Below, piece by piece: positions 27,742 through 31,291 of a stretch of 64,000 nt of DNA; the first letter of the stretch is position 1, and every line of letters starts with the position of its first letter. The notes below the pieces were generated by a model that ran no database searches, was not told the origin of the DNA, and saw only the letters and a program-made list of their open reading frames with translations. This DNA comes from Gemmatimonadota bacterium (lineage in GTDB: Bacteria; Gemmatimonadota; Gemmatimonadetes; Gemmatimonadales; GWC2-71-9), in assembly GCA_003221035.1 (NCBI GenBank), contig QHUB01000010.1:1-64000 (forward strand), in the 5' to 3' direction. Both the position numbers and the translations under genes were made by a program.

Positions 27742-28795
27742 CTATCCGACGAGAATTGGTTCCGGCGGTTGGCGGTAGCGGTAGGTTTTCCCAGCGTAAT
27801 TGCGGAGGACGATTTCCTTATCAGTGAGCTTGACCACGTACTCCGGCAGCAGCGGAATCTTCCCGCCGCCTCCCGGCGCGTCGATTACGAAATGCGGGAC
27901 GGCCAGGCCGGACGTCCAGCCTCGCAACGCCTGCACGATCTCGAGCCCCTTCTGGACCGTCGTCCGGAAGTGCTCGGCGCCCGCCACCTGGTCACACATA
28001 TAGATGTAGTAGGGACGCACCCGCGCCGTGAGCAGCCGCTGCATCAGCAGCTTCATTATCTCCGGATCGTCGTTCACGCCCTTGAGCAGCACGGTCTGAC
28101 AGCCGAGTGGAATCCCGGCATCGGCGAGCATGCCGAGGGCCTGTACAGCGGCCGGGGTCAGCTCGTCGGGGTGATTGAAGTGGGTGTTGATGTAGAGCGG
28201 ATGGTACCGCTTGAGGATCGCGCAGAGCTCGGGCGTCACCCGTTCGGGCAGGTGGCACGGGACCCGGCTCCCGATCCGCAGCACCTCGAGGTGCGGGATC
28301 GCGCGTAAGCGCTTGCAGATCTCGTCGATGCGGCGGTCTGAGAGGAGGAGGGGATCACCGCCCGACATGATGACGTCGCGGATCTCCTTGTGCTCCTCGA
28401 GATAGCGGAACGCCGATTCGAGCTGCGCCATCGGGATCTTCTCGGGGTCACCGACTTTCCGGCGCCGGGTACAGAAGCGGCAATACGCGGCGCAAACGGG
28501 CGACACCAAAAACAGCGCGCGGTCAGGATAGCGATGCGTGATGTTGGGCACCGGCGAGTTGGCATCCTCGGCCAGCGAATCCACCATCCCGTCGTGGACC
28601 TCGAGCTCCTGCACGGTAGGTACGTACTGCCGCCAGATCGGATCTCCGGGTGACTTGATGAGATCGACCATGGCGGGGGAAATGCGGAACTCGAAATTCT
28701 CGGCGGCCTGGCGGAGCACGCCGATCTCCCCGACGTGCGCCGCGCCGAACCGCGCGGCCAGGGCGTCGAGCGATGCGATGCTTTTCTTACGGAGC
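27742..28795 (-). CDS. KamA/lysine 2,3-aminomutase-family radical SAM protein
   Basis: CAAYCRFCTRRRKVGDPEK radical-SAM motif; IMSGGDPLLLSD; THFNHPDE; PLLPEYVVK. Reading frame stays open upstream of called start as LETWQELLRKKSIASLDALAARFGAAHVGEIGV, so true start overlaps the GNAT stop. Confidence 0.88.
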
Positions 28796-29287
28796 AGCTC
28801 TTGCCACGTCTCCAGGCGTCAGATCCTTGGTATAGATCACCAGATCATCACCGGGAGCGTAGTAACCCGGGACCCGAGCGGCGCTGGTGTAGCCGCGTGC
28901 CTCGTAGAACTTTCTCGTCGGCTGGTAATCGTCGCGCGACGAGGTCTCGACCACAACTAAGCGTGCGTCGTGCATCGCGAGTCGTTGTTCCACTGCGCCG
29001 AGCAGTTGCGTGCCGATTCCCGAGCCCTGATGCGCACGATCGACGACGATCCAGTACAGATCCCACGTGCTTTCGGTCCCCGGCGTCGGTCCCCAGCATG
29101 CGTACCCGAGCAGCTGGTCGCCATCGAACGCGCCGACGAACCGGTAATCCTCGTCGCCGGCGAGGTTCTCGTCCAGCAGCTCGACCGCGGTCCCGACCTC
29201 TTCCTCGCGAAAGCGGCCGGTGTCGCGCGTCAGCTGCTCAAGCCGTCCGCGGTGCGCGTGCCCGACGGGGCGCAGCGAGCAATTCAC
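28787..29287 (-). CDS. GNAT family N-acetyltransferase
   Basis: WDLYWIVVDRAHQGSGIGTQLLGAVEQRL (acetyl-CoA motif A), SSRDDYQPTRKFYEARGY. Confidence 0.88.
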   Translation of the reverse strand: MNCSLRPVGHAHRGRLEQLTRDTGRFREEEVGTAVELLDENLAGDEDYRFVGAFDGDQLLGYACWGPTPGTESTWDLYWIVVDRAHQGSGIGTQLLGAVEQRLAMHDARLVVVETSSRDDYQPTRKFYEARGYTSAARVPGYYAPGDDLVIYTKDLTPGDVARAAP

Positions 29288-30257
29288 GCGCGGCCTTCGA
29301 CCCTTGCGCCTCGCGCAGCGCCAGCTCCGCGATGCGGCGAATCAGCTCGGCGTAGTCCCACCCCGCGGCCTTTGCCATCCGCGACAGGCCCGCGTCGTCC
29401 GTGAGGTCGGGGTTGGGATTGACCTCGAGGATCCATGGCTTGCCCAGATCATCGACGCGGACGTCGACGCGGCCGTAGCCTTTGCCCTGCATCGTACGCC
29501 ACGCGGTCTCGGCGAGCCGAACGAGGCGATCGGCGAACCGCTGTGAGATTTGCGCGGGGCAGACCGGCCGGCTTCCGAGATCCTCGGCTGAGCCCACATG
29601 CCACTTGGCTGCATACGTAAGGATCGGCCAGACGCCCTCGGGCATCGCGCTAAAGTCGATTTCAGCGATCGGCAGCATGCGATCACCGACGATCCCGACG
29701 TTGAACTCGCGTCCCCCGATGTATTGCTGGACCAAGACCTCGTCGAATTGCTCGGTCATCGCGGCGATACGGGCTTTGAGACTCTTGCGGTCGGTCACGA
29801 CCGACTGGCGATCGAGTCCCGCGCTCGCGTCCTCCGCGGCCGGCTTGACGATGGCCGGCAGCGGGAAGTCGTCGTCGATCTTCCCTTGCGCTATGGTCCA
29901 GCGGGGCACCGGCAGTCCGGCCCGCTCGAGCAGCGTGTTCGCGACCGCTTTGCGACGGCAGACGGCCGTCGTCCAGGGTCCGCACCCCGTGTACGCGATG
30001 CCCGCGAGCTCCAGCGTCCCGACCACGTGGTCTTCCCACTGTGCGACGCCGCGCACGCCCTCGCACAGGTTGAATACGAGATCGGCGCGACGGCAGGCGT
30101 TGAACCAGCGCATGTCGTGGCGCGCGGGCACGCGCTGTACCTGGTGATTGAGTGCTGCGAAGATCGCGGCGATGTCGTCGACCGCTTGCATCACGCCGGC
30201 GACATCCTCGGTGGTCCAGTCGTCGGCGCCGGGATCGTACAGGATGACGACTTTCAC
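29238..30257 (-). CDS. ATP-grasp enzyme, D-Ala-D-Ala ligase-like (second of pair)
   Basis: VKVVILYDPGADDWTTEDVAGV...LVFNLCEG...PAIVKPAAEDASAGL...GYGRVDVRVDDLGKPWILEVNPNPDL; GTGA overlap with upstream gene. Confidence 0.88.
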   Translation of the reverse strand: MKVVILYDPGADDWTTEDVAGVMQAVDDIAAIFAALNHQVQRVPARHDMRWFNACRRADLVFNLCEGVRGVAQWEDHVVGTLELAGIAYTGCGPWTTAVCRRKAVANTLLERAGLPVPRWTIAQGKIDDDFPLPAIVKPAAEDASAGLDRQSVVTDRKSLKARIAAMTEQFDEVLVQQYIGGREFNVGIVGDRMLPIAEIDFSAMPEGVWPILTYAAKWHVGSAEDLGSRPVCPAQISQRFADRLVRLAETAWRTMQGKGYGRVDVRVDDLGKPWILEVNPNPDLTDDAGLSRMAKAAGWDYAELIRRIAELALREAQGSKAARELLAAPRRARAPRTA

Positions 30258-31291
30258 GCGCTGACCGCGGCGGCTGCGGCGGGGATCGTGCGGCCGGTGA
30301 TTCGCCGCCACGCGATCCGCACCACTTCCTGGATCAACTCGTCGTAGCTGAACCCGGCGACCCGCGCCGCCTTCGGGAAACAGGAATTCATGGCGGGATC
30401 GGGAATGATGCCCGGCAACGGATTCAGCTCGACCACGTTCGGGACGCCGAAGCGGTCGACGCGGACGTCGATCCGGCACCAGTCACGGCAGCTCAACGCG
30501 CGATATGCGTCGAGCGCCACGCGCTCGGTTTCGCGGCACAGCGAGTCGGGCACCCCGGTCGGTGGGCATTGGAAGATCGCGAGGGGGTTCTGCGGCGTAT
30601 CCCAGATCCACTTCGCTTCGTACCCGTATACCGGTGGCGCACCGGCGGGCAGCGTCGCGAAATCGAACCCGACGATCGGCAGGCAGCGCACATCGCCGTT
30701 GTTGCCGAGGATCGCGACCGTGAACTCGGGGCCGGGGAGATACGTCTCGACGAGCACGGGCTGGTCGTAGCGTCTCAAGAGGAAAAGCACGCGCTCGGCG
30801 AGCTGGGCCGGAGACTCACATAAGTTATTGACGAATATTCCCTTACCAGACCCTTCGGCCACCGGCTTCACGAACAGCGGAAACGGCAGCGGCATCCGCT
30901 CGAGGTCTTCGAGCATTTCGACCACGCGGAACGGCGCGGTCGGTACGCCGCGGTAGGCAAGAATTTCTTTCGTGCGCCCCTTGTGCAGCGTGAGCGCGAG
31001 CGCGAGCGGGTCGGAGCCCGTGTACGGAATGTTCAGGTACTCGCACAGCGCCGGCACGTGCGACTCGCGGCAGGGACCGTGCAGCCCCTCGGCGATGTTG
31101 AACACGATGTCGGGATGCGCAAGCGCGAGTTTTTGCGGAAGGAATTCGTCGGCCTCGAGACGAACGACGTCGCCGAAGAGACTGAGAGCCTGATCGACCG
31201 CGTCGATCGTCGACGGGTCATCCCATTCTGCGTAGGCATCAGACCCGGAGCTGCCGTCTGGTTTCTCGTTGTAAGCGAGACCTATTCGCAT
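30254..31291 (-). CDS. ATP-grasp enzyme, D-Ala-D-Ala ligase-like (first of pair)
   Basis: MRIGLAYNEK...IVFNIAEGLHG...LFVKPVAEGSGKGIFV...CRIDVRVDRFGVPNVVELNPLPGI. Confidence 0.88.
   Translation of the reverse strand: MRIGLAYNEKPDGSSGSDAYAEWDDPSTIDAVDQALSLFGDVVRLEADEFLPQKLALAHPDIVFNIAEGLHGPCRESHVPALCEYLNIPYTGSDPLALALTLHKGRTKEILAYRGVPTAPFRVVEMLEDLERMPLPFPLFVKPVAEGSGKGIFVNNLCESPAQLAERVLFLLRRYDQPVLVETYLPGPEFTVAILGNNGDVRCLPIVGFDFATLPAGAPPVYGYEAKWIWDTPQNPLAIFQCPPTGVPDSLCRETERVALDAYRALSCRDWCRIDVRVDRFGVPNVVELNPLPGIIPDPAMNSCFPKAARVAGFSYDELIQEVVRIAWRRITGRTIPAAAAAVSA

Follow-up and report, generated by a model that had tools for sequence, protein, structure and literature searches.

Four overlapping genes on the minus strand of a Gemmatimonadota genome encode two ATP-grasp enzymes that resemble D-alanine-D-alanine ligase (Ddl), a GNAT acetyltransferase and a radical SAM enzyme related to lysine 2,3-aminomutase (LAM). 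The locus raises the question of whether these enzymes form one pathway and, if so, what it makes. The genes lie in a stretch of 64,000 nucleotides (the window) and are named here, in order of transcription, ATPg1, ATPg2, GNAT and KamA. The original prediction had described four overlapping minus-strand genes at 27742-31291; when checked on the sequence, all frames were real and the coordinates correct. It had also reported a GTGA overlap, which is present, an overlap of about 50 bp, which is exactly 50 nt and recurs in many relatives, and a KamA frame reaching into the GNAT stop, which corresponds to a 29-nt overlap with a CTG start:

30254..31291, minus strand: ATPg1, 345 aa, predicted Ddl-like ATP-grasp amide ligase, gene 1 of the cassette
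29238..30257, minus strand: ATPg2, 339 aa, predicted second, distinct Ddl-like ATP-grasp ligase
28787..29287, minus strand: GNAT acetyltransferase, 166 aa, Acetyltransf_1 match
27742..28815, minus strand: KamA-family radical SAM/PLP aminomutase, LAM-like, 357 aa, CTG start, without C-terminal zinc domain
30254..30257, minus strand: GTGA overlap of ATPg1 stop and ATPg2 start, read from the sequence; the 4-nt overlap is repeated in relatives
29238..29287, minus strand: ATPg2/GNAT coding overlap of 50 nt, read from the sequence; identical length in many relatives
28787..28815, minus strand: GNAT/KamA coding overlap of 29 nt, read from the sequence; KamA CTG at 28815-28813
28824..28828, minus strand: AAGGA, putative ribosome-binding site for KamA, 8 nt upstream of its CTG and internal to GNAT

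The domain assignments were likewise borne out, with two Dala_Dala_lig_C ATP-grasps, an Acetyltransf_1 GNAT and a member of the KamA family (TIGR00238). Neither a lysine riboswitch nor another RNA was detected upstream (0 Rfam matches in the window and eight cassette loci).

Conservation and Linkage of the Four Genes

A neighborhood confined to this strain had been named in advance as a reason to give up the pathway; we found the cassette in at least five phyla. A genome scan with ATPg1 detected the four genes, in one order and on one strand, in Gemmatimonadota, Holophagales (Acidobacteriota), Bacteroidetes, Fermentibacteria and Kiritimatiellaeota/Lentisphaerae, as well as one rokubacterial record with ATPg1 and KamA only. 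ATPg1 orthologs occurred in approximately 32% of sampled Gemmatimonadota genomes, and strong orthologs were present in 43 of 248 genomes (17%) of the Bacteroidota (the phylum of locus L039), 22 of 247 (9%) of the Acidobacteria (L037) and 7 of 241 of the Kiritimatiellaeota (L043); the majority of loci sampled in these three phyla had the full cassette. Phylum assignments of these genomes follow the record titles through which they were reached. Among 298 Gemmatimonadota genomes, 94 contained ATPg1, 84 KamA and 82 both, with the two genes adjacent in 80 (a Fisher value computed with these counts disregards relatedness). The canonical order and strand were found in 59 of 91 scored loci, many of the others being cut by contig ends. 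Distances in the trees of the four proteins correlated with r = 0.82-0.95, compared to a permutation maximum of 0.26, a correlation that owes in part to shared species history. The conservation is far beyond chance. Gene content and co-inheritance are matters of observation, as are the fusions, catalytic-residue conservation and predicted fold described below.

At two loci (L046 and L127), only ATPg1 and KamA were present. Two genomes (G124 and G157) had ATPg1 and ATPg2 without KamA, and in some Bacteroidota genomes KamA, ATPg1 and ATPg2 were unlinked. To judge from the KamA-less and unlinked genomes, either some units are incomplete or the genes do not cooperate in every case.

Genes next to the cassette, such as ThyX, GlcD, DUF116 and GltB, were common to Gemmatimonadota only, and other phyla had different flanks. 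These contexts bear on the idea that the unit makes a secreted natural product with β-lysine, such as an antibiotic, metallophore or signal. KamA/ATP-grasp pairs in other contexts, on a Thioflavicoccus plasmid and on rhizobial plasmids, are in keeping with it; however, no transporter, regulator or resistance gene recurred with the four genes in the loci compared, the flanks are housekeeping-like and differ among phyla, and clade-wide occurrence in Gemmatimonadota would be unusual for such compounds. We regard a secreted product as unlikely.

Related genes were also seen in other arrangements. On the Thioflavicoccus mobilis plasmid NC_019941 (L076), KamA and a Ddl-like ATP-grasp are located by SbnA-like, ornithine-cyclodeaminase-like and diaminobutyrate transaminase genes, a different cluster in which diamino acids, KamA and an ATP-grasp come together. 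On rhizobial plasmids (L077 and L078), KamA is located by an ATP-grasp annotated as acetyl-CoA carboxylase biotin carboxylase subunit family protein. Two loci of the Bacteroidota phylum (L111:7190-8239 and L113:7487-8545) had a lone ATPg1 preceded by a gene for a small hypothetical protein; KamA and a gene resembling ATPg2 were located elsewhere in these genomes. An ATPg2-like ATP-grasp fused behind an apparent SAM methyltransferase was present at L124:2089-4011 in genome G466, and G531 has a frame of 647 aa that is similar; both genomes are without KamA.

GNAT, Its Fusions and Known Acetylation Systems

GNAT matched Acetyltransf_1 with 53.9 bits, and its closest solved structure was 2r7h (E 2.6e-52), a very near relative whose functional name, "putative D-alanine N-acetyltransferase", is the depositor's guess. 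Relatives of GNAT on plasmids sit in unrelated contexts, and therefore the GNAT family by itself is not diagnostic. More informative was its fusion with ATPg2 in a single open frame, detected in three loci, two from Gemmatimonadota (L065 and L071) and one from the Kiritimatiellaeota phylum (L128):

L065:5714-7855: ATPg2-GNAT fusion
L071:4511-6589: ATPg2-GNAT fusion
L128:4361-6859: ATPg2-GNAT fusion, gene order also permuted

In the loci examined, GNAT was fused to ATPg2 only and no GNAT-KamA fusion was found. In L128 and L131, the gene order was permuted and the genes were still clustered. These fusions and permuted yet clustered orders tie the enzymes functionally.

The adjacency of a LAM-type radical SAM enzyme and a GNAT acetyltransferase is shared with ablA-ablB, the established route to the solute N-epsilon-acetyl-β-lysine (Pelobacter genome paper, PMC3543383). 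KamA and GNAT could be read as a pair of this type, the two ligases having another job or making a storage form, and AblA is indeed the best family for KamA. However, the AblB model TIGR03827 matched neither GNAT nor anything else in the genome, and the identification of GNAT as AblB was rejected on this ground. KamA also lacks the zinc domain and scores under the AblA cut-off, GNAT has its fusion partner in ATPg2 and never in KamA among the loci examined, and the two Ddl-like ligases are near-obligatory companions of KamA, in agreement with the earlier view that it is the ligases that set this locus apart from ablA/ablB. An ablA-ablB-type pair appears quite unlikely.

A second known system, NAGGN (asnO-ngg), involves Ngg, an enzyme that both acetylates a glutamine and links it with another one (PMC8070244). 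This combination of ligation and acetylation provides a working precedent for the logic of the cassette, in which ATP-grasp and GNAT are adjacent and sometimes fused. The cassette differs in having two ligases and an aminomutase. Among the families listed, GNAT had no match to an Ngg family and neither had ATPg2, for which 25 of 36 families were listed, and no asparagine-synthase-like amidotransferase was recognized among the genes flanking the cassette.

Two Ligases Related to Ddl

Each of the two ligases matched Pfam Dala_Dala_lig_C with 99 bits. Against the Ddl model TIGR01205, ATPg1 and ATPg2 scored 131 and 136 bits and failed its cut-off of 245.65, and neither reached the threshold of any NCBIfam Ddl model among the matches listed. 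In AlphaFold models (pLDDT 86.5 for ATPg1 and 86.7 for ATPg2), the nearest folds to the predicted structures were all Ddl, and the Y216F Ddl structure 1iow was among those matched. The cassette ligases thus have the ATP-grasp fold of Ddl in common with it, as well as the catalytic K, E, R, D and N, which are retained in both. They differ from Ddl at Tyr216, which is replaced by Trp in 59 of 60 ATPg1 and 60 of 60 ATPg2 sequences (as K-Trp in both ligases) from complete cassettes, and at Ser150, which is kept in ATPg1 and lost in ATPg2, where the motif EDAS corresponds to EGSS of Ddl. A separate, true Ddl with the usual K-Tyr is encoded elsewhere in the genome and scores over the cut-off, at 272 bits.

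Substitution at Tyr216 is known to alter the specificity of Ddl. Together with the Ddl-like sequence and fold of both ligases, this change would fit an altered Ddl-like cell-wall dipeptide that contains a β-amino acid and changes peptidoglycan cross-links. Such a role is highly unlikely in our view, as a normal Ddl is present elsewhere, an amine-blocking acetyltransferase would be unexpected for a cross-link precursor, and no Mur genes were found beside the cassette in the loci examined. The ordinary peptidoglycan function of Ddl is similarly disfavored for the cassette ligases, the genome having its own true Ddl.

KamA: Start Site, Family and Probable Substrate

An ORF caller using ATG, GTG and TTG places the start of KamA at 28719, giving 325 aa. 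The true start is most likely the CTG at 28815, because relatives have an ATG aligned with it (METWQELL...), the AAGGA site, found in the close relatives listed as well, is placed 8 nt ahead of it, and codon-position changes upstream of 28719 are mainly in the third position (80:76:313, from pairwise comparisons over 22 codons outside the GNAT overlap). Five close relatives have a CTG at the same site or one codon upstream. Across the clade, CTG is found in the window, L010, L015, L033, L011 and L013, GTG in L014 and ATG in outgroups; an initial assignment of ACG in L011, L013 and L014 was discarded in favor of CTG or GTG one codon upstream. The start of KamA appears to be a drifting codon with a conserved AAGGA inside the upstream gene, such that gene callers will truncate the protein.

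KamA passed the cut-off of the KamA family model TIGR00238 (287.8 bits versus 199.2). Its best-scoring model was AblA (TIGR03820), with 439 bits under a cut-off of 525, and the sole solved relative found was lysine 2,3-aminomutase 2a5h. In LAM, the CxxxCxxC motif binds the cluster, R134 the lysine carboxylate, D293 and D330 the epsilon-amine and K337 the PLP. The CxxxCxxC motif is invariant in all 60 complete cassettes, and in an alignment to 2a5h the four residues are retained in the window KamA and again in 60 of 60. This conservation points to a basic amino acid as the substrate, be it lysine or another; ornithine or arginine would also be compatible with D293 and D330, with lysine favored by the presence of both aspartates. 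The LAM zinc ligand Cys268 is replaced by Asp, the protein ends before the C-terminal zinc domain, and the CxCxxC of the intersubunit zinc site was absent from the C-termini of 13 aligned KamA orthologs. Since KamA lacks this domain and scores below the AblA cut-off, it cannot be taken for granted as an aminomutase of free lysine.

LAM carries out the first step of lysine fermentation in some anaerobes, and KamA might similarly open a route of lysine catabolism with the ligases unrelated to it; but the cassette loci share no recurrent catabolic gene, and the ligases and acetyltransferase are biosynthetic, so that this reading deserves very little weight. Scarcely credible is a role as EpmB, acting with EpmA in the β-lysylation of EF-P with the neighbors incidental, which the original prediction had itself named as the finding that would overturn it: in favor of this role, the genome has no other protein of the KamA family, but KamA scores 234 bits with the EpmB model TIGR03821 (cut-off 369) versus 439 with AblA, the genome has no EpmA over the cut-off (an open frame of 522 aa, the size of lysyl-tRNA synthetase, came closest), and KamA is closely linked to the ligases in 80 of 82 genomes, and EpmB was rejected on these grounds.

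Proposed Pathway

A route that makes or ligates a β-amino acid such as β-lysine, as originally suggested, is the best-supported reading of the locus. We propose, with moderate confidence, that the four genes form a self-contained, non-ribosomal pathway. Its product would be a small N-acetylated peptide, or an amide resembling one, with a β-amino acid in it, most likely β-lysine. The chemistry of the pathway, that is, the substrates and product, the order of ligation and the number of residues, as well as its function, we infer from the enzymes. KamA, with SAM, a [4Fe-4S] cluster and PLP, would convert L-lysine to L-β-lysine by shifting its alpha-amino group to C3. ATPg1 would use ATP to convert a carboxylate into an acyl phosphate and then join it to a second amino acid; it is the probable handler of the β-amino acid, since ATPg1 and KamA occur alone in a few genomes. 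ATPg2 may form a second amide bond or carry out a parallel ligation. GNAT would use acetyl-CoA to cap an amine, probably of the substrate or product of ATPg2, with which it is expected to act because the two are fused in some species.

The absence of a recurrent transporter, regulator or resistance gene from the unit is a weak argument in favor of an internal compatible solute or stress metabolite rather than a secreted product. More tentatively, and with less confidence than in the pathway as such, we suggest that the cassette represents an undescribed, phylum-spanning primary-metabolite pathway of soil and sediment bacteria, mostly uncultured, whose product may be an acetylated β-lysine peptide with two amide bonds, made by two dedicated Ddl-derived ligases and used by the cell as a solute of the compatible type or in the response to stress.

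The cassette is real, widespread and uncharacterized; no description of it was found in the literature searched, in which coverage of subscription journals was thin and some searches were narrow. If the proposed reading is true, the label "D-alanine-D-alanine ligase" given to such genes is misleading and masks the pathway, a common bacterial metabolite would have been overlooked, and a link between radical SAM aminomutases and stand-alone peptide ligases would be established beyond NRPS systems.
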